A stretch of 26,537 nucleotides of DNA. Origin: a virus. This document shows, piece by piece, positions 4,003 through 26,107 of the stretch (the first letter of the stretch is position 1; each line of letters starts with the position of its first letter). The stretch is from IMG/VR virus record IMGVR_UViG_3300031885_002150, positions 1 through 26,537 of that record; one strand, written 5' to 3'. Below the pieces are notes generated by a model. That model was given only the letters and a program-made list of their open reading frames with translations, did no database searches and was not told the origin of the DNA. The translations under genes were made by a program, and so were the position numbers.

Positions 4003-5592
4003 ATGCCGCCACGATTGCCCAAAGAGCAAACGCTGTCCGGGGCCTACGAAGGTCTGCGGACGGAATACGACGCCGCCCGCGAGTCGCGGCTCCGTCGTCG
4101 TCGGCCAGGTGTCACGGGGACGGGGCGGTCGGCCGATTGGCATTACCGATCGCAAGTCGATTACCTCAAGCTAATCGAGCTGGCCCGCGATACCCATCGC
4201 AACGATCCGATCGCCGGCCAATTGCTCGAGCGGGTAAGCGATAACGTCGTGCAAGACGGCTTCACCCTGGATCCTGACACTAAGGATAAAGGGCTAGATC
4301 AAGAGCTTCGCGATCGCTGGTACGAATGGGCAGAGAACCCATTGCTGTGCGATAAGGCGCGCGAGTCGACTTTCCAGGAGAAGGAAAAGCTGATTTCGCT
4401 GGCGATGGATATCGACGGCGATTGCTTCGAACTTCCCTGCCGGGATGGCTCGCTGGAAAGCGTCGAAGCCCATCGCTGCCGGACGCCAGGAAACACGGTC
4501 AAGCAAGTCATCTGCGGCGTGAAGCTGGGCCCGCACCGCGAGCGCCAAGAATACTGGTTCACGCCGAACGATATCGACCCCTGGATGCCGCTCGACAAAG
4601 TCGGCGACATTGTGAAATACCCCGCCTACGATAAAGAGGGGATGCGAACCGTTTTCCATATCCTGACGCGGAAGCGTTCTAGCCAAACGCGCGGGATTAC
4701 GGCTCTGGCGCCAATCTTCGACATGCTCGGGATCGGCGGCGATCTGCTTTTCGCGGCGCTCATCCGCAGTCAGATTGCCAATTGCATCGCGTTCATTCGC
4801 CAACGCGGTGCTCTCTATGCCGGCGATGGCAGCGTGGCGGCCACGGGGCCCGTCACGACGCGCACGAATGCCGACGGGTCGACGATGCAATCCGAGGAAA
4901 TCTACCCGGGTATGCAATTGGTGGCGGGGCAAGATGAAACGATCCAAGGATTCTCGCCTGGCGTCGCCTCGCCCGACACTGAGCGGGTAATGAACCTCGT
5001 TCTCTCGATTGTGGGGGCCAACGTCGGCGCACCGCTCAATATGGTGCTGCTGGATCCGACCAAAGCTAACTTCTCCTCGCTGCGCGGCAATTTTGAACAA
5101 GCGAAGTTCGGATTCCGACAAAAACAGCGGCGGATGCGCGAGAAATTCCATACGCCGTGCTACCTCTGGAAAGTTCGCCAGTGGTGCTATGACGATCCGA
5201 CGATGGAGCAGTTTCGCACACGGGGCGATATCAAGCTGTTCAACCATCTGTGGCACGCGCCTGCCTGGCCTTATCTGGATCCGCTCAAGGATGCCGGCGC
5301 GGATTTGATGATCTTGTCGAACGGCCTGAGCTCGCCGCGGCGGATTCACGCCGAGGCCGGTCGCGACTGGGCCGACGTCTGCGATGAGATCGCCAAAGAC
5401 AACGTCATGGCGATGGAGATCGCGATCGCGGCATCGAAAGCCCTCTTTGAGCGAACGGGCGAGCGGGTTGATTGGCGGGAAATCATGCCGCTACCGAAGC
5501 CCGGCAGCCTGAAATTCAATTTGGCCGTCGAGTCCGATGCACCGGAAAACGACGCGGCGTCGAAACCTACATCCGATGCGGGGGCAGCATGA
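4003..5592 (+). CDS. Portal protein, lambda gpB type
   Basis: Forms the ring at one capsid vertex through which DNA enters and leaves and to which the tail attaches. The 529-residue length and the sequence match the lambda portal family. An early basic segment (RLRRRRP) precedes the segment DPIAGQLLERVSDNVVQDGF. The central region includes RGITALAPIFDMLGIGGDLL, and GANVGAPLNMVLLDPTKAN leads into NFSSLRGNFEQAKFGFRQKQ, the typical helical stem and clip area of this family. It starts at ATG 4003, 6 bases after the previous stop, with no strong ribosome binding site, so translation is probably coupled. Its stop overlaps the next start as ATGA at 5589-5592. The C-terminal 25 residues are low-complexity. 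Gene order (large terminase, small protein, portal, S49 protease) supports the call. Confidence 0.88.
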   Translation: MPPRLPKEQTLSGAYEGLRTEYDAARESRLRRRRPGVTGTGRSADWHYRSQVDYLKLIELARDTHRNDPIAGQLLERVSDNVVQDGFTLDPDTKDKGLDQELRDRWYEWAENPLLCDKARESTFQEKEKLISLAMDIDGDCFELPCRDGSLESVEAHRCRTPGNTVKQVICGVKLGPHRERQEYWFTPNDIDPWMPLDKVGDIVKYPAYDKEGMRTVFHILTRKRSSQTRGITALAPIFDMLGIGGDLLFAALIRSQIANCIAFIRQRGALYAGDGSVAATGPVTTRTNADGSTMQSEEIYPGMQLVAGQDETIQGFSPGVASPDTERVMNLVLSIVGANVGAPLNMVLLDPTKANFSSLRGNFEQAKFGFRQKQRRMREKFHTPCYLWKVRQWCYDDPTMEQFRTRGDIKLFNHLWHAPAWPYLDPLKDAGADLMILSNGLSSPRRIHAEAGRDWADVCDEIAKDNVMAMEIAIAASKALFERTGERVDWREIMPLPKPGSLKFNLAVESDAPENDAASKPTSDAGAA

Positions 5593-7193
5593 GCAGCGCA
5601 ATCGAAGAATTTCGGGCTAACCTCACGCCGGCCCGCTTTGACGAATACTTTGGGGCTTGGGCGATGGAATCCAATCGCCTGATGATGATGCGCGAACGCC
5701 TCACCAGCATGGACGTGCGGCGGCATCTGCAAGAGCACGAATCCGAACTCAAGGCTTATGACGACGGCTATCGCCGGCCCAATTCCCAAGACAGTTGTCA
5801 AACGACGTCGACCGGCACGCTGATCGTTTCGCTCACCGGCACGCTGATGAAACAGTGCTCGAGCTACGGAGGAACGAGCACGGTATCGGTGCGGCGGTTG
5901 CTCCGCCTCGCGGCCAGGGATGAATCGGTCAAAAACTGCCTGTTGCTGATCGATTCGCCGGGCGGCACGGTTGCCGGCACGCACGATCTGGCGATGGACG
6001 TGCGGGAATTCGGCAAAATCAAGCCAATTGACGCCTATATCGAAGATTTGGGGGCCTCGGCCGCCTATTGGGTCGCGTCGCAATGCCGCAAGGTTTATTC
6101 GAACGAAGGGGCCTTGATTGGCTCAATTGGCACCCTCGGCGTGTATCTCGATAGCTCGAAATACTACGAAAACGAAGGTTTTAAGGTCCGCGTGATCTCC
6201 ACGGGCCAGTTCAAGGGCACGGGCGTTCAAGGAACCGAGATTACCGACGAACAGCTCGCCTATCTACAGAAGCTAGTCGACGGCAATCAATCCATTTTCA
6301 ACGCCGACGTGGCTGCTGGCCGCGGCGCGGCCCTGAAGCGGGTCGAAAGCTGGGCCGACGGTCGCGTGTTCCGGGCCAGCGAAGCCCTGACCATGGGCCT
6401 GATCGACGGCATCCAAACGCGCGATCTGACGATCGCCAATCTGGCCAAAGCCAAGCCGGCCCGTAGTGCCGTGTCGGCCTCTCTCGCGTCCGACGCCGCC
6501 ACCATGTTCGACGCCGCGCTGCCGACCGAAACCGCCGATGCCGCTCCCGAGGACGAAGAAGAAGATCCTTGCGAGCAGGATCCCGAGGAAATCGACGAAG
6601 AAGTCGAAAAACCCAAGAGTGAAACCACATCGGGGCGTCCCGATGAAACTTTAACGGAGGATGCTTTGATGACTACTCAGAATGCCGCTGGCGCCCCGGC
6701 GCCGGCCCCCGTAGCTGCCGCTTCGGCCGCTATTCCTGCTGCCGTGGCTGCTGCTCCGGCTGCCGATCTTGGCCCGAAAGCCGCCACCCTCGCCGAATTG
6801 AAGGCCGGTTGCTTCGGTGCTGATGCGAATTTCCTTGTCGCGCAGATTGAAGCCGGCGCAACCCTGGCCAGCGCTCAAACGGCCTGGATGGCGCACATGG
6901 CCAACGAGAACGCCACGCTCAAGACCAAGCTCGAAGCCAACAAGCCGGCCGAACGTCCGGGCGTCGATGCCCTGGGCGCTGGTGTCGGCACGTCGAGCGA
7001 GGAAAGCGGCGGGTTGAACGCGGTCGACAAGTGGAACGCGGAATTCGATTCGCGGCTCAAGGCCGGCATGTCGCGCGAGCAAGCGAAAGCCGACATCGAC
7101 AAGAAGCATCCGACGTTGCGGGCGGCCTATGTCGACGCTTTCAACGCCGAAAACAAGGCCAAGTTGGCGGTCGGACCCCGCAACAGCCGTTAG
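5589..7193 (+). CDS. Prohead protease of the S49 (SppA/lambda gpC) family
   Basis: Serine protease that matures the procapsid by cleaving head proteins and scaffold. The product from ATG 5589 is 534 residues. SPGG at 123-126 forms the oxyanion-turn motif. GASAAYW places the nucleophile at Ser157, and STGQFKGTG places the general-base Lys at 209; this is the Ser/Lys dyad of signal-peptide-peptidase-like enzymes. After the protease domain (about 75-305) comes a long acidic, Asp/Glu-rich linker (about 325-350). An Ala/Pro-rich and helical C-terminal region follows, which is the scaffold part. The start overlaps the portal stop (ATGA). The in-frame scaffold start at 6669 gives a second product, as in lambda C/Nu3. 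A longer in-frame extension back to 5472 overlaps the portal and is unlikely. Confidence 0.9.
   Translation: MSSAIEEFRANLTPARFDEYFGAWAMESNRLMMMRERLTSMDVRRHLQEHESELKAYDDGYRRPNSQDSCQTTSTGTLIVSLTGTLMKQCSSYGGTSTVSVRRLLRLAARDESVKNCLLLIDSPGGTVAGTHDLAMDVREFGKIKPIDAYIEDLGASAAYWVASQCRKVYSNEGALIGSIGTLGVYLDSSKYYENEGFKVRVISTGQFKGTGVQGTEITDEQLAYLQKLVDGNQSIFNADVAAGRGAALKRVESWADGRVFRASEALTMGLIDGIQTRDLTIANLAKAKPARSAVSASLASDAATMFDAALPTETADAAPEDEEEDPCEQDPEEIDEEVEKPKSETTSGRPDETLTEDALMTTQNAAGAPAPAPVAAASAAIPAAVAAAPAADLGPKAATLAELKAGCFGADANFLVAQIEAGATLASAQTAWMAHMANENATLKTKLEANKPAERPGVDALGAGVGTSSEESGGLNAVDKWNAEFDSRLKAGMSREQAKADIDKKHPTLRAAYVDAFNAENKAKLAVGPRNSR
6656..6660 (+). promoter_or_regulatory. Internal ribosome binding site for the nested scaffold
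   Basis: GGAGG lies inside the protease gene, 8 bases before an in-frame ATG at 6669. It is among the strongest Shine-Dalgarno sites in the window and its only apparent purpose is to start the nested product. Confidence 0.7.
6669..7193 (+). CDS. Nested capsid scaffold protein (Nu3-like, in frame within the protease gene)
   Basis: Predicted 174-residue scaffold made by internal initiation in the same frame as the protease, so it equals that protein's C-terminus. It begins MTTQNAAG, runs through an Ala/Pro-rich segment to about residue 35, then a helical section (KAATLAELKAG onward, with NENATLKTKLEAN) likely to form a coiled coil. It ends in a basic, helical tail (residues 120-174), typical of the capsid-binding end of scaffolds. 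In lambda, Nu3 is expressed this way from gene C, and the position here is identical. The start is supported by GGAGG at 6656-6660. Scaffolds evolve fast, so architecture and position are the main evidence rather than sequence identity. Confidence 0.72.
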   Translation: MTTQNAAGAPAPAPVAAASAAIPAAVAAAPAADLGPKAATLAELKAGCFGADANFLVAQIEAGATLASAQTAWMAHMANENATLKTKLEANKPAERPGVDALGAGVGTSSEESGGLNAVDKWNAEFDSRLKAGMSREQAKADIDKKHPTLRAAYVDAFNAENKAKLAVGPRNSR

Positions 7194-11739: not shown

Positions 11740-13038
11740 ATGGCTCTTAATTACACCACGCTGTTTGATCGTCTTGGCAAGGGGATCAGCATGATTCTCG
11801 GCGTCAACACGTTTCGATATACCACGCTCCCCGGCAAATGGACCTCGTTTATCACGGCATTCGATGGCGAAAACGATCCAGCGGTGCGGGCCTGCATTAA
11901 CGGTGCGACCGACACGCTGGCGACGGCCAAGGCTGGCTTGAATTCGATTCAAACCTCCACGGCTTCGTCGATCTCGAGCACGATCATCGAAATGCTCAAC
12001 GCCGAAAGCCCGCTCACGTCAAAGACGATCGCGAACGGCATGGCGGAATTGTCGCGGCTGATGATCGTCGACGGGAAAACGGTCGACGCCAATGCGGTCG
12101 GATCCACGGTGACAGCCGGCAGCAATAGCGGCACGGGCCGCATGGTGACCAGTCAGCTCAATGGTCGCGGCAAAACGATCGAAACGATCTACGATGAAAT
12201 TATCGACGTGACATTCACCACCACCACCCAAGCCCTGGCATCTGGCGAGGCCTCGGCCGATAGCTTGCTGGCGGACAACTGGCCTCTGGGGAGCGCCTGC
12301 TCCAAGGCTTTTACCGCCATTTCGACGGGCGGCGCCTCGGATCTGCTGTCGGGTGGCAACATGGAAACCTTCACGGTTGCCAATATCCCGGACGGCTGGA
12401 GCATTCTGGTCGGGTCTGCGGGCACCGATATTCTGTCAGAGGCATCCGTGATTTACGGGGGCGCCAAGGCGCTTAAGATCCTTGGCGACGGGGCCACGCT
12501 TTCGTCGATCGGCCAAGTGATCTCGGGATTGGCGGCCTGCACGCCTTACGCGGTCAACTTTTGGGCCAAGATGGGCGTCGCGCCTGCGGCCGGCATCCTG
12601 ACGGTCGATCTCTGGGACGGAGCCGCTGTGATTAACGATGAGGCGGGCACCGCCAACTCCTTCACGGTGGATCTGACCACGCTCGGCACGACTTACGTTC
12701 CGAAGGGCGGCGTGTTTCGCCTACCGGAACCAGTGCCAGCCAGCGTCACGTTGCGCCTGCGGCTTTCGACGGCCCTGACGAACACCCGGGCCTTGTACCT
12801 CGACAACGTCTCTCTGGGGGCAATGACGCAGCTTTACACGGGCGGACCTTATGCGTCGATCTTCGTCGGCTCGACGGCCTTCAGCCTCGACGATACGTTC
12901 TCGGTCGCCATGACGAACGACTACGGCGGAGCGGTCCAGACGGGCCTCTGGCGGGCCCTGAACCTGGCGACGGTCGGGGTGACCCTGCCGTCGAACTCGT
13001 CCGGCGGTGAAAACATCCTCGACTCCGTGATTCCGTAG
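11740..13038 (+). CDS. Tail structural protein with carbohydrate-binding-like domain
   Basis: A 432-residue protein. Residues 1-200 are Thr/Ser/Ala-rich with helical stretches. Residues about 203-360 look like a jelly-roll carbohydrate-binding domain of the CBM4/9 type. This section opens with NMETFTVANIPDGWSI, continues with a YGGAKALKI strand and an SGLAACTPYAVNFWAK strand, and closes with ALYLDNVSL, the usual ending of that fold. The remaining 70 residues are beta-type. The start ATG 11740 has GGGAGG a few bases upstream. It lies between the probable tube and the assembly chaperone, so it may decorate the tail or form part of the tube with a surface domain that binds host glycans. The domain call is from pattern; binding is inference. 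Confidence 0.5.
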   Translation: MALNYTTLFDRLGKGISMILGVNTFRYTTLPGKWTSFITAFDGENDPAVRACINGATDTLATAKAGLNSIQTSTASSISSTIIEMLNAESPLTSKTIANGMAELSRLMIVDGKTVDANAVGSTVTAGSNSGTGRMVTSQLNGRGKTIETIYDEIIDVTFTTTTQALASGEASADSLLADNWPLGSACSKAFTAISTGGASDLLSGGNMETFTVANIPDGWSILVGSAGTDILSEASVIYGGAKALKILGDGATLSSIGQVISGLAACTPYAVNFWAKMGVAPAAGILTVDLWDGAAVINDEAGTANSFTVDLTTLGTTYVPKGGVFRLPEPVPASVTLRLRLSTALTNTRALYLDNVSLGAMTQLYTGGPYASIFVGSTAFSLDDTFSVAMTNDYGGAVQTGLWRALNLATVGVTLPSNSSGGENILDSVIP

Positions 13039-13123: not shown

Positions 13124-13801
13124 ATGGCGTCATATCTACTCTTTGCCGAAAACGAGATCCACGGCAACAGCCTGGCCGAAAAATACGGCCTGCAAGCCCT
13201 GGGGGGCCCGGCCGATAGCGCGATGGCCTGGGTCCAAACCGAATCAAGCCCGACCGGCAAGCGGGGTTTGCTGGGGTTCTGGAGCCAGCTCAACTCCGTG
13301 CATGATCGCCGCTTCGACCCTGGTTCCCAAACATGGCGGCAACTCCCCGGCAGTCCGCTCTGGCTCGGGACCGAGGACCACGATCCGCTCTGCCCGGAGG
13401 ATATTCAGCGCACGAAGATCTACCGTTCGAACCCGGTCACGCTCGAGGATGGGCAGGAATGGCTCATTCCCGTTGCGAACGCTTTGCCCCATTACTGGGG
13501 CATCGACGATGAAGGGCAATTTTCCCGCCGTCCGAAGGGCGATTTTGCCGAGTTTTGCGGCAAGGCGGAAACGCTCTTTAAGGTGTTCAACCGGCAACAG
13601 GCGGATGGCGAGCCGTGGACGCTAGAAACTGACTGGGATTACCTCAATTACGCGCTCCAACTGAACTATAAGCTCACGCCGCAGATTGTGACTGCGCTGC
13701 AATTGATTGGCGATGATAGTGCGGCCGATCTGGTGGCCGCCACGGTCGAAATGAAATTCATTCGGGCGGTTGAGGACGAAAAAAAAAATCAAACGGAGTG
13801 A
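13124..13801 (+). CDS. Tail assembly chaperone, gpG-like (unshifted product)
   Basis: A 225-residue protein directly upstream of the tape measure gene, the standard place of the tail assembly chaperone that coats the tape measure protein during tail building. The sequence is globular and acidic, with a helical C-terminal third (YLNYALQLNYKLTPQIVTAL, then AVEDEKKNQTE). The key sign is a run of ten A at 13779-13788 close to the stop codon: most phage chaperone genes of this type make a second, longer product by frameshifting there. The start ATG 13124 has only a weak TAGGGT upstream. Identity is inferred from position, the slippery run and the open -1 frame rather than from sequence similarity. 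Confidence 0.68.
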   Translation: MASYLLFAENEIHGNSLAEKYGLQALGGPADSAMAWVQTESSPTGKRGLLGFWSQLNSVHDRRFDPGSQTWRQLPGSPLWLGTEDHDPLCPEDIQRTKIYRSNPVTLEDGQEWLIPVANALPHYWGIDDEGQFSRRPKGDFAEFCGKAETLFKVFNRQQADGEPWTLETDWDYLNYALQLNYKLTPQIVTALQLIGDDSAADLVAATVEMKFIRAVEDEKKNQTE

Positions 13802-13929
13802 GCTTACACCCCCGATACATGCGTTTTTTGATGTGGCAGCGCGGGATGCTGCCTGACCACGAGCCGACTCACTTTGATCGGTACTTTCTCGCCACGTCCA
13901 GCCAGGGGGCGGATCCCTTCCGCTTTTAA
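13124..13929 (+). CDS. Frameshifted tail assembly chaperone, gpGT-like
   Basis: Predicted long form of the chaperone: translation enters the -1 frame in the A-run at 13779-13788 and continues to TAA at 13927-13929, for about 268 residues. The added part of about 47 residues includes MRFLMWQRGMLPDHEPTHFD and ends GADPFRF. This short aromatic and charged domain resembles T extensions in that it follows the G part and ends just before the tape measure gene, which starts 3 bases later. The heptamer A AAA AAA is in the correct register for -1 slippage. The +1 frame closes earlier, at 13854-13856. Without frameshifting, 131 bases in an otherwise tightly packed operon would be empty. In lambda the T domain binds the tape measure protein. 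Confidence 0.7.
13779..13788 (+). other. Slippery A10 run for -1 frameshifting or transcriptional slippage
   Basis: Ten consecutive A are read as GAA AAA AAA AAT in the chaperone frame, 10 bases before its stop codon. The heptamer A AAA AAA at 13780-13786 matches the X XXY YYZ form. RNA polymerase can also slip on runs of this length, so the shift may arise at transcription, at translation or both. I see no clear stimulatory hairpin directly downstream. Confidence 0.7.
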
Positions 13930-13932
13930 GTT

Positions 13933-15999
13933 ATGTCCGCAGGTGGTGGCCAGACCGTTACGCTGCAAGTCGCAATGCGGCACGAGCCCGTTATTCGCGG
14001 CCTGCAAAATATCATTGAACAGGCGGAAGCTGTTGGCCGTGCCGGCGGGCGCATGGGCGATGATAGCGAAAAGGGGGCCAGCAAAGCGAATTCAGCCTGG
14101 GACAGAGGCCTTAAAACGCTGATGTCCTATCCGCAGGCGATGCTGGGCATGGTGACCGGCGGCGCTGCGGTCTATGAGATCGTGAATCGCATTCGCGCCG
14201 AGTTTGAACGGCTAGATCAAATTCGCGAAAAGGCGATGAGCAAGCTCGATGCCGTGCAAGAGCCGTTCAAGAATGCGCAGATGCAACTAGACCCGAAATA
14301 CATGGGCTCCCCCGAGGCCAAGAAGGGGATTATCCAGGGCATCACGAATTACGGCCAGGCCGATGCTGGTGCCGGCTTTATGAAAATGCTGCAAGGCATG
14401 GCATCGGCCAAGGGTGCTTTGATGACGTCGGCGCAGGTCATGGAAGCGGCGCAGATTGGAGCGAAGTTTCGCGGGCAAATTGGGCTCAATGACGAAGATG
14501 CCGCGGCCGTCGGCGGCGGCTTGCTCGACTTAATGAATACCGATCTCGACGCCGGCCGTAAGCCGATGTCGCACAAGGCCAGTATGGGCATGGTTTCCAG
14601 GATGTTCGCGCTCGATCGCCCTACGCAAATGGGCGGTTTGTTTAAGTATGAAATGCGGGCGATCAATACGCTCGAGCGCGAACACGGCTGGGACCGCGCC
14701 GACGCGATGGCGTTGCAGGCGACAATGGCGCAAGGCAAGCCGGATCTCTCTGGCCGCACGTCATCGACTTCGACCCAGTTATTCGGTGCTGACTTACCGG
14801 CGGCGTTCAACGTCCTTCACAACCGGGGACTCACTAAAAAGGATTACCCCGACGTCACCCCGGAAAACTTCAAGCAGTTAGGTGCTCGCGCTTTTGAAAT
14901 GCTGATTGCCGACAACGAGACGCAAGTCGAGCTCGATGCCTTGATGAACGGCATCAACTCCAAGAATCCCAGAGCTCGAATGAAGTCCAATCGTTATGGC
15001 ATCGACTATCAGGGGATGATGAGCGGCGAGGCCGGTATGAAGGAATTCAAGCAGAACTTTTTCCAAGCGGATTCTGCGGCCTGGCGACGCTACCGGGCGG
15101 CGGCGAAGGAATTGCGTTCTGGCGGTGATGCTGCTAACGAAGCTCACTATGAGGAGCTTATGGGCGGCAAGCATGAAACTTCCCAGGAACAGTTTTTTGC
15201 CGCTCGCGCCAAGCAGAAGGGCCATCTTGGGGCCATGCAATACACAAACACAACCGCCGCCCGTCGGGGAAGCCTGTCGGAACTTGTTAAAGAGATTGGC
15301 GACGTGTACGGAAGTTCGGCCATCATTCAAACCCTGAAGGACTCAGCAACCACGATTCAGGCCAGCGGCAAGTCGCAAAATGAAATCTCCGATATGGAAG
15401 ATGCCGCAATGACGGATGCGCGAAATCGCGTCCTGCGGTGGGGCATGTCGCAACCCTTTACGTCTGAGGATTCGGCCCGGTTTTCTAAGTGGCGAACGAA
15501 GTACCATCCGCAAGCTAAATACAAGGATGGCGGCCTATTTCGTGAGCACTTTGAGGAGTACCGCAAACTGACGATGCCGGAGGATGATAAGCATTTTGTC
15601 GAGATCGTCGATAGCTTCCTGGAAATGTCGAAAGACGAAAACAAGCGAAGCTCGCAACTCCCTGCGGTTAAGCCGCGCCCGGCAGTACCCGAGCATAATT
15701 TCAGTGCGCCCAACAAATGGACGCGGCCAATCCAGCGCATGCAAAAGACGGAACCCGAAACCGAGGAGGATGTCGGCCCGCCGCCGCCTGGCTGGGTGCC
15801 GCCTGGCGTCGCCCCGCCGACAGCAAGGCCTGGTGAAAACGATCAATCTGCTCGCGATCGTCAACTCGATCAATTGATTGCCGTTCTGTCTGGCGGCCTG
15901 CAAGTCATGTTCGTTGATGAAGGGGGCCGACGGATCGGTCAAACCACTTCGCGGCCCGTGGGCATTGATTACCACGACGATCCCCGGGGGCTGAATTAA
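13933..15999 (+). CDS. Tail tape measure protein
   Basis: Long, mainly helical 688-residue protein that sets tail length and is ejected with the DNA. Position after the frameshifted chaperone pair and before the tail-tip genes is diagnostic. The N-terminus is Gly/Ala-rich. A hydrophobic patch (about 66-84, QAMLGMVTGGAAVYEIVNR) may contact membrane, and long charged helices fill the middle. A Pro-rich segment near 620-645 precedes a short C-terminal domain (QLDQLIAVLSGGLQVMFVDE). From the usual rule of about 0.15 nm per residue, a tail near 100 nm is expected; this is an estimate, not an observation. Start ATG 13933 is 3 bases after the -1 frame stop. No lysozyme or peptidase motif was recognised. 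Confidence 0.72.
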   Translation: MSAGGGQTVTLQVAMRHEPVIRGLQNIIEQAEAVGRAGGRMGDDSEKGASKANSAWDRGLKTLMSYPQAMLGMVTGGAAVYEIVNRIRAEFERLDQIREKAMSKLDAVQEPFKNAQMQLDPKYMGSPEAKKGIIQGITNYGQADAGAGFMKMLQGMASAKGALMTSAQVMEAAQIGAKFRGQIGLNDEDAAAVGGGLLDLMNTDLDAGRKPMSHKASMGMVSRMFALDRPTQMGGLFKYEMRAINTLEREHGWDRADAMALQATMAQGKPDLSGRTSSTSTQLFGADLPAAFNVLHNRGLTKKDYPDVTPENFKQLGARAFEMLIADNETQVELDALMNGINSKNPRARMKSNRYGIDYQGMMSGEAGMKEFKQNFFQADSAAWRRYRAAAKELRSGGDAANEAHYEELMGGKHETSQEQFFAARAKQKGHLGAMQYTNTTAARRGSLSELVKEIGDVYGSSAIIQTLKDSATTIQASGKSQNEISDMEDAAMTDARNRVLRWGMSQPFTSEDSARFSKWRTKYHPQAKYKDGGLFREHFEEYRKLTMPEDDKHFVEIVDSFLEMSKDENKRSSQLPAVKPRPAVPEHNFSAPNKWTRPIQRMQKTEPETEEDVGPPPPGWVPPGVAPPTARPGENDQSARDRQLDQLIAVLSGGLQVMFVDEGGRRIGQTTSRPVGIDYHDDPRGLN

Positions 16000-23349: not shown

Positions 23350-23766
23350 TCATGGATCGTGCCGCTCCCAACCGTCTGCCCGCATCAGGGCGCCAACTTC
23401 CTTTCCATCGACAAACACCCAAAGCGATCGACGGCCGTAGGGGTCGCGCTTACCGGATTCGACCACGGTCACCACGCCCGAGGCGAATAGCTTTTCAAGG
23501 GCCGCTTTGGCAAGCTGCCCTTTGGCGAGCTCGCCGTCGGTGATTGTCACGGTCTGCCGTTGGCGGGACACTTCCCAGGCGTCGAAAGCGAAGATCCGCA
23601 CGGTCTGCTGAGCCAGGACGATATCGAACCCAAGCACGATGTCCGCCACGAACGTATCGCCGTCGTGAATCTTCACGTTGGCCAGGGTGGCACCCTTTAG
23701 GATCGGGGCCGGCGCGGGGGATGAGGGGGCAAAAGCAATCGCCAGGGCTGCCAGGAAATAGAGCAT
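23350..23766 (-). CDS. Secreted thermonuclease-like (SNase family) protein
   Basis: A 138-residue predicted nuclease that would cut DNA or RNA outside the cytoplasm. An N-terminal hydrophobic segment (LYFLAALAIAFAP, residues 2-14) is a signal peptide or anchor. The SNase motifs follow in order: VKIHDGDTF (31-39, metal-binding Asp), VRIFAFDAWE (56-65, Arg57 and Glu65 as catalytic residues) and KRDPYGRRSLWVFVDGKEVG (106-125, a catalytic Arg). The usual DxPE has Trp in place of Pro, which departs from the consensus. It is convergent with the late operon and read from the noncoding region upstream, so it has its own promoter. It could be an accessory gene expressed in the lysogen or a scavenger of host nucleic acid. 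The length fits small SNase proteins. Confidence 0.72.
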   Translation of the reverse strand: MLYFLAALAIAFAPSSPAPAPILKGATLANVKIHDGDTFVADIVLGFDIVLAQQTVRIFAFDAWEVSRQRQTVTITDGELAKGQLAKAALEKLFASGVVTVVESGKRDPYGRRSLWVFVDGKEVGALMRADGWERHDP

Positions 23767-24757: not shown

Positions 24758-24786
24758 CGCTCGGTGTCCACCACCGGGCGTTTTTT
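24758..24786 (+). terminator. Intrinsic terminator at the 3' end of the integrase gene
   Basis: CGCTCGGTG (24758-24766) pairs with CACCGGGCG (24772-24780), 9 pairs with one G-U, 5-base loop, then six T (24781-24786). It stops plus-strand transcription just before it would run antisense into integrase, whose stop codon begins within the T-run. Confidence 0.75.
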
Positions 24787-26107
24787 ATTCGCCGGCCGGC
24801 TCCTGGCCGATGATGCCCGGGTGCGATTCGAAGATGGCCGACCATTGCCCGTCTAAGGCCTGGGCGACGTCCAGCAGCTCCGCCTGGTCGATCTCGCGAT
24901 AAACGTCGGTCGTGGCCATGTTCTCGTGCCCCAGGAGCTTCTGGGCGGCTTCCTGCCCCAATGCCTTGCCAACGATCGTGGCGGCCGTGTGCCGCAGCCG
25001 ATTGGGGTGCCAGGGCTCGATGGTGACGCCGGCCCGCCCCGCTTTGGCGATCGCGTACTGGATCGCCCGCCAGTAGGCTCCGGCCGTGTAACAGGGGCCA
25101 AATCGCTCACTCTGATCCGGGGGCGTTTCCTCCCGTGTTTCTCCGGCGTTTGTGCTCGGTGCGGGGGTAGAAACCGCCTGTTGATCCGGAGGCAGTTCCG
25201 CGGCTGCCGCTCCGGCGGGCCGGCGCGCCAAGTGCCGGCGCCGCTCGGCCTCGGCCGGTCGGAAACAAAACGCGCTGAAATCGTGCTGCGAGCAGTACGG
25301 CCTGAGCATGTCGATCGCGAACTTCGGGATCGATACGAGCCGGGTGGCACCCCGCCAAGCGTTCTTATGATCTTCGGGCTGGTAGATGAACCGGCCGCCG
25401 GCCGCCCGGATCTCGCTCGGACGCATCCGGCAAACCTCGTCGGGGCGCATGCCGCATACTAACTGCACGCGGACCATCGTCGCTACCATCGGGCTCAAAA
25501 ATGGGAGCGTCTGCTCGACGACGGCCAGGGGCACGGGCAAGATCTTGGGATGATCGAGCACGCCATACTCGCCCCGCCGCAAACCTTTGACCGGGGCCAT
25601 TTCGGCATACAGGGTCGGCCTCGCCCCTGTCGCCTTGTTGTTCAGGCTGCACCACCCGAAAAACCGCTTGATGATCGTCACCCGCTTATTGATAACCCGC
25701 CGGGCGTAACCTTCTTCAACGAGATCGCGCTGCAAGGCCATCAGGTCGACCGGGTGAAAATCGTTGATCGGCAGGTCGCCATACAATTCCTCGAGCGGGC
25801 GCAGCGATTGGACGACGTTTTGAAACTCTCGCCGCAAGCCGGTCGCGTTCGTATATCGGGCCTCGCTGTCGGCCAGGAATGCCGCGATCGCCTCGACGAT
25901 CGAGATCGACGTGCCGGGGGCCGGCGGCAACACCTTCGGCTTGACGGCCTCGTTGACAAGCCGATCGAGAATCGCGGCGTATTCGCGATGGCTCTCCGGG
26001 CTGTTGTATTTGCCGAGATAAACCTCGCGCCCTCCGTTCAACCGCACGGTTCGAACGTAGGCTTGGCCGTTTTTAGGGCCCCGATATTTGAGTAGCGATC
26101 GACTCAT
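24785..26107 (-). CDS. Tyrosine recombinase / phage integrase
   Basis: Site-specific recombinase for phage integration and excision. The 440-residue product has an N-terminal arm-binding region (1-60), a core-binding SAM-like domain (about 68-150) and a catalytic domain. Catalytic residues: Arg221 (CGMRPDEV), a likely beta-hairpin Lys248 (EDHKNAW), box II NRLRHT with Arg372 and His373, LGH His394 and nucleophile Tyr403 (TDVYREID). The usual first His of HxLRH is Asn369, which I associate with planctomycete integrases. An insert rich in Ala, Pro, Glu and Arg lies at about 285-335. The ATG is 2 bases downstream of the previous gene's stop, so the two form an operon. It runs toward the tail genes. 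Confidence 0.88.
   Translation of the reverse strand: MSRSLLKYRGPKNGQAYVRTVRLNGGREVYLGKYNSPESHREYAAILDRLVNEAVKPKVLPPAPGTSISIVEAIAAFLADSEARYTNATGLRREFQNVVQSLRPLEELYGDLPINDFHPVDLMALQRDLVEEGYARRVINKRVTIIKRFFGWCSLNNKATGARPTLYAEMAPVKGLRRGEYGVLDHPKILPVPLAVVEQTLPFLSPMVATMVRVQLVCGMRPDEVCRMRPSEIRAAGGRFIYQPEDHKNAWRGATRLVSIPKFAIDMLRPYCSQHDFSAFCFRPAEAERRRHLARRPAGAAAAELPPDQQAVSTPAPSTNAGETREETPPDQSERFGPCYTAGAYWRAIQYAIAKAGRAGVTIEPWHPNRLRHTAATIVGKALGQEAAQKLLGHENMATTDVYREIDQAELLDVAQALDGQWSAIFESHPGIIGQEPAGE

Follow-up and report, generated by a model that had tools for sequence, protein, structure and literature searches.

Organization of the Chaperone Locus

The window analyzed here comprises 26,537 nucleotides (positions 1 to 26,537) of the viral record IMGVR_UViG_3300031885_002150. 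Its tail region carries an open reading frame (ORF) for a G-like protein, a run of ten A residues close to the end of this ORF, and a short open −1 frame that ends just before the next large ORF. The features of the locus are as follows:

11740-13038, plus strand: protein of 432 aa in the upstream tail module; by its position, a putative tube or major tail protein
13124-13801, plus strand: G-like gene, putative tail assembly chaperone, zero frame, 225 aa, TGA stop (direct reading and homologues)
13779-13788, plus strand: A10 run, candidate slippage tract; A9 or A10 at the equivalent place in 25 of 34 representative loci
13786-13929, plus strand: T-like extension of 47 codons and a TAA stop, read in the −1 frame; all 34 loci conserve it, in this frame and no other
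13798-13800, plus strand: −1 frame GTG that overlaps the zero-frame stop (GTGA); could allow a stop-start alternative; relatives do not conserve it as a start
13810-13884, plus strand: conserved core of the T-like extension, PRYxRxLxWxRGxLPxxxPTxFDRY (alignment of more than 34 extensions)
13933-15999, plus strand: putative tape measure protein of 688 aa (position, length, and an N-terminus similar in relatives)
Predicted junction peptide region of the G-T fusion: KKKSNGVSLHPR

The 3′ end of the zero-frame ORF at 13124-13801 reads GAC GAA AAA AAA AAT CAA ACG GAG TGA. The heptamer A AAA AAA lies in zero-frame register at 13780-13786 and follows the X XXY YYZ pattern, so that direct reading reproduces to the base the A10 run and the in-register heptamer near the stop codon described in the initial annotation. 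The −1 frame is uninterrupted from 13774 until the TAA at 13927-13929, which leaves 3 bases (GTT) before the ATG at 13933, whereas the +1 frame is closed by TGA at 13854-13856. Between the zero-frame stop and the ATG that opens the next large ORF lie 131 bases (13802-13932). All of these coordinates agree with those reported earlier, namely a −1 frame running to 13929, a 131-base gap, 3 bases to the next gene, and +1 closure at 13856.

The predicted G-T fusion comprises 268 aa (30.5 kDa). Its T part had been described as a short aromatic extension, and its 47 codons indeed encode a basic (pI 9.7) and aromatic segment, whereas G is acidic (pI 4.7). The GTG at 13798-13800 had escaped the initial annotation; given its GTGA overlap with the zero-frame stop, a stop-start reading of the locus needed testing. 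Taken alone, the window locus is unable to prove a shift, and the proof is supplied by comparison with its relatives.

Identification of Homologous Loci

Almost no matches were returned when single sequences (chaperone, portal, capsid, terminase, and the 660-aa tail protein) were used as queries. Neither ORF of the locus matched anything in Pfam, PHROGs, or GenBank phages, two scans of genome contigs recovered no relatives, and tblastn gave no match for four family members against phage records or for one against plasmids. A terminase search led to one kin contig (L004), in which the ORF at the equivalent place is 28% identical to the window chaperone. The −1 frame that follows it reads TPRLLRVRMWTRGLLPKFKPTIGDLYL, which aligns to HPRYMRFLMWQRGMLPDHEPTHFDRYF in the window.

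A scan for a terminase motif recovered 21 kin contigs, all confirmed as terminase homologues, with the chaperone present in 12 records. Scanning for a chaperone motif located ~100 codons upstream of the junction (LxDG[QN]xWxxP...LP) recovered 41 stretches, nearly all of them true homologues. Neither scan selects for A-runs. Together, the motif scans yielded ~40 homologous loci from uncultivated phages, and loci below 90% identity were taken as representatives, 34 of them with the extension. Neither Pfam nor PHROGs nor the sequenced phage records contain the chaperone family. The loci define an unannotated family of putative tail chaperones.

Conservation of the −1 Frame Extension

To score the T extension, each locus was left out of its own profile, and the six frames of the whole locus were searched. 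The best match was the −1 frame at the G/T junction in 34 of 34 representatives. For the window, the −1 frame was recovered with E = 1.4e-17 by a profile built without the window and with E = 9.9e-16 when its two nearest relatives were also omitted; it was the sole significant match among the six frames, the next best having an E of about 0.5-1. The consensus of the T core is R-x-x-x-x-x-W-x-x-G-L-x-P-x-(Y/H)-x-P-(T/S)-x-x-D, and the length of the extension varies across the family from ~29 to 66 aa (47 in the window).

The initial annotation had called for a comparison of the −1 frame in related phages and had stated that relatives with neither the A-run nor an open −1 frame would refute its prediction. 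The prediction survived this comparison: the −1 extension was found in all 34 representatives and an A-run of at least six in 28 of them. Two further, related loci (L035 and L074) have no recognizable T extension, and their next large gene begins directly; they are losses or alternatives of T and not counter-examples. In L035, GGGGGAG, a slip-site candidate in relatives, sits at the Shine–Dalgarno position of the next gene.

Length of the A-Run

A ribosomal heptamer requires seven A residues (or A6 with C). Among the 34 representatives, A9 was found in 20, A10 in five, A8, A7, and A6 in one each, and no run in six, so that 25 of the 28 A-runs are 9-10 long. Where a run reaches at least seven, it reaches at least nine in 25 of 27 loci, compared with 21% expected from the codon use of the same genes if only the in-phase heptamer were kept (p about 3e-15, kinship ignored). 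When lineages were defined at below 40% identity, 17 of 17 had a run of at least nine (p about 4e-12), although these p-values are not fully corrected for phylogeny.

The A9 runs occupy all three codon phases (13, 4, and 3 loci), and the residues flanking them vary (EKK, QKK, GKKK, SKKK, and FKKK), which argues that the DNA run, rather than the peptide, is conserved. Each A9/A10 run also holds an in-register A AAA AAA. In ~545 kb of kin contigs with 60% GC, 21 A/T runs of at least nine were counted, and 20 of them lie at the chaperone junction; the only one away from it is at L048:13082-13091. On the tree, the run is retained across deep divergence, the median end branch measuring 0.74 changes per column, and it shows a minimum of four switches. 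Judged from these comparisons, the length of the A-run is under selection.

RNA Structure and Other Slip Sites

No downstream stem-loop was detected in the window by pseudoknot-free folding (z about −0.2 to +0.8). Downstream structure was likewise missing at the 28 A-run sites (mean z −0.06 vs. −0.31 in controls) and at the sites with at least nine A alone (mean z +0.15 to +0.34). Lower z than at the A9+ sites was obtained for nine loci that have a different site (the sites were picked by inspection, and four of the loci are close relatives), with p values of 0.0003, 0.018, and 0.0035 at 45, 60, and 80 nt, respectively. Among the non-A junctions, L078 combines A AAA AAC with a strong hairpin (z about −4), L055 has C CCT TTC (z about −2), and L029, L030, L056, and L057 have GGGGGAG in register at the equivalent junction; z was about −2.5 at 45 nt in L056 and about −3 at 80 nt in L038. 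The A7-only locus, L042, has no notable hairpin (z +0.2 to +1.5).

Upstream of the runs, GGAG or GAGG occurs in 9 of 28 loci as against 13% in controls (p about 0.007), mostly at the poor spacing of just 2-4 nt. In the window, GAGG stands 3 nt before the A10 run.

A different arrangement was seen in a contig related to the window by its capsid (39%), the tail chaperone of which is unrelated (L003, IMGVR_UViG_3300024518_002051, 12372-12787). Here, the heptamer A AAA AAC is in register (GAT GAA AAA AAC). The −1 frame would add 134 residues, among them the cysteine pairs CPAC and CSHC, and stops 24 bases short of the tape measure gene. This locus is a candidate for a canonical ribosomal G/GT pair.

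Predicted Products and Neighboring Genes

The AlphaFold2 model of G (mean pLDDT 93, pTM 0.87) comprises an N-terminal beta domain (about residues 1-137) and a C-terminal helical domain (139-224). A fold search of BFVD returned an entry named “Tail assembly chaperone” at rank 1, a moderate match (E 0.02, probability 0.98, TM 0.30/0.45). Against the PDB, G had no sequence match, and the fold search returned antibody noise only.

In relatives, an ORF of 296-475 aa occupies the place of 11740-13038, and complete copies of the gene after the junction mostly encode 458-742 aa and resemble one another at the N-terminus. The 11740-13038 product had no Pfam or PHROG family match and the 13933-15999 product no PHROG tape measure match; both the tube and the tape measure assignments are putative and were made by position. 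The placement of the chaperone ORF and the ORF sizes are right for G/GT in the window and in relatives, although in the window no PHROG tail family is matched by either neighbor. Since no Pfam or PHROG family recognizes G, its name is drawn from the order of the genes, the conserved architecture, and a single fold match of moderate strength, which together indicate that it is probably a tail assembly chaperone.

Elsewhere in the window, a large ORF at 5472-7193 contains a Peptidase_S49 domain (Pfam E 2.9e-30) and probably encodes a prohead protease whose C-terminal part is scaffold-like. A tyrosine integrase (Pfam PF00589, E 1.1e-13) is encoded on the minus strand at 24785-26107, near the contig end, and its presence suggests that the phage is probably temperate; the integrase may be planctomycete-like. 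A small minus-strand ORF at 23350-23766 resembles a staphylococcal nuclease by eye and had no Pfam match at 0.001.

Origin of the Frame Change

The locus almost certainly encodes a G/GT tail assembly chaperone pair. The −1 extension of the relatives, the gene order, and the fold match support the frameshifted chaperone proposed in the initial annotation, and comparison of the loci establishes that T is in the −1 frame, that it is coupled to G, and that a tract of 9-10 A is conserved.

The GTGA overlap, present in the window and in L031, would allow T to be a separate small protein started from the GTG by stop-start coupling, with no frameshift at all. The start is not conserved, however: L032 and L033 have GTT where the window has GTG, L034, L036, and L078 have no start codon ahead of the T core, and, unlike the window with its GTG at 13798, 21 of the 28 A-run loci contain no ATG, GTG, or TTG before the core. 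In addition, the T frame is embedded far within the G ORF in L036, L037, L072, and L073, and the A-run would be left unexplained. A separate T gene with its own start was rejected on this loss of start codons, and we regard it as very improbable; with starts missing and the T frame inside the G ORF, frameshifting, at whichever level, is the shared route. Even less probable is that the split between G and T comes from faulty sequencing, gene decay, or phase variation switched at the DNA level. Homopolymers are prone to sequencing errors and mutate readily, and the window is an uncultivated metagenomic contig, but independent contigs are concordant, loci without A-runs still keep the −1 T frame, and neither in-frame G-T fusions nor scattered frames were found among relatives. 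In all 34 representatives T is in the −1 frame relative to G, with no case of 0 or +1, and because this relation is constant, sequencing error and phase variation were rejected as general explanations.

The remaining question is the level at which the shift occurs. Standard expression would yield the 225-aa G protein, while at the A10 tract a fraction of the products would enter the −1 frame and give the 268-aa G-T fusion. In the A9/A10 members, the likely main route, which we propose with moderate confidence, is RNA polymerase slippage: the polymerase would add one A to some transcripts, and ordinary ribosomes would then read the −1 frame, with ribosomal −1 slippage on A AAA AAA as a possible further contribution. 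This reading is favored because the runs are 9-10 long and not 7, because the A9+ sites lack downstream structure, and because the other sites have it. In bacteria, efficient transcriptional slippage in vivo sets in at nine A, and selection against runs from nine A upward is seen in many genomes (PMC1088944, PMC5009743). The initial annotation had mentioned in an aside that polymerase slippage may contribute; the clustering of runs at 9-10 and the missing structure strengthen this suggestion, and we infer the polymerase to be the main agent, the fusion to be produced, and its role to lie in tail assembly. If the lambda system serves as a guide, the tape measure protein would be coated by the G part, and recruitment of the tail tube subunit would fall to T, which is short, basic, and aromatic.

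A purely ribosomal shift is possible but rather doubtful. It would rely on tandem tRNA-Lys slippage on A AAA AAA, of the lambda G-T or E. coli dnaX type, with the extra A residues incidental or boosting. Long A-runs may raise ribosomal slippage as well. Every A-run locus has the heptamer in register, canonical sites occur in kin loci (the A AAA AAC with hairpin of L078, C CCT TTC, and GGGGGAG) and, with A AAA AAC and the long −1 extension, in the capsid relative L003, L042 has A7 without a notable hairpin, and the modest GGAG/GAGG excess would also fit. What this explanation leaves unaccounted for is that 25 of 27 runs reach nine when seven would be enough, in three phases and with varied flanking residues, and that downstream structure is missing at A9+ sites and present at the others. 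Our confidence in polymerase slippage is lower than in the G/GT pair itself because the non-A sites were chosen by eye, four of them come from close kin, and L042, the Shine–Dalgarno-like excess, and the heptamer within every A9 run would suit the ribosome too. The simplest reading of the comparison is one family with two routes, in which polymerase slippage would operate at 9-10 A and ribosomal frameshifting elsewhere.

Comparison with Known Systems

As in gpG/gpGT of phage lambda, the locus lies upstream of a putative tape measure gene, the predicted −1 shift falls near the end of the chaperone gene, and the extension would be made only as a fusion. The lambda slip site is G GGA AAG; here, it would be A9/A10 without detectable stimulators. 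The two systems have no sequence family in common, and the extension in the window is short (47 aa). The G/GT −1 frameshift is widely conserved in long-tailed phages despite low sequence similarity (PMC5009743). GGGGGAA (“fivetwo”) is a frameshift motif of actinobacteriophage (SEA-PHAGES) tail chaperones (PRFect, PMC10885494), and GGGGGAG of the four family members is close to it, whereas the window has an A-run instead. By sequence, the family falls outside every described chaperone family in the libraries searched.

The dnaX gene of Thermus thermophilus likewise has a nine-A slip site at which inserted A residues shift the frame (PMC1088944, PMC5009743), although slippage there truncates the product and here would extend it, and the gene and its role are unrelated. 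Polymerase slippage on homopolymers also generates length variants of a secretion-apparatus protein, the ratio of which matters, in Citrobacter rodentium tssM and Shigella spa13 (PMC4256274, PMC5009743); these are type VI and type III secretion genes and not phage tail chaperones.

Implications for the Phage Group

Overall, the data are compatible with an unannotated phage group, its host probably a planctomycete, in which the tail chaperone ratio would be set by polymerase slippage at selected A9/A10 runs, with repeated evolutionary switches to and from ribosomal sites (A AAA AAC, C CCT TTC, and GGGGGAG); we consider this full proposition evenly poised. G/GT frameshifting is a textbook case of translational recoding. 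The open-licence PMC literature yielded no description of transcriptional slippage producing a tail chaperone, and, if true, the proposed mechanism would be the first case found there in which transcription sets the ratio of the tail chaperones. It would then be a phage counterpart of the dnaX contrast between polymerase slippage in Thermus and ribosomal frameshifting in E. coli, with the ~30 junctions of the related loci as a natural comparison set. The definition of the family lets chaperone and tape measure genes be recognized in many uncultivated phages.
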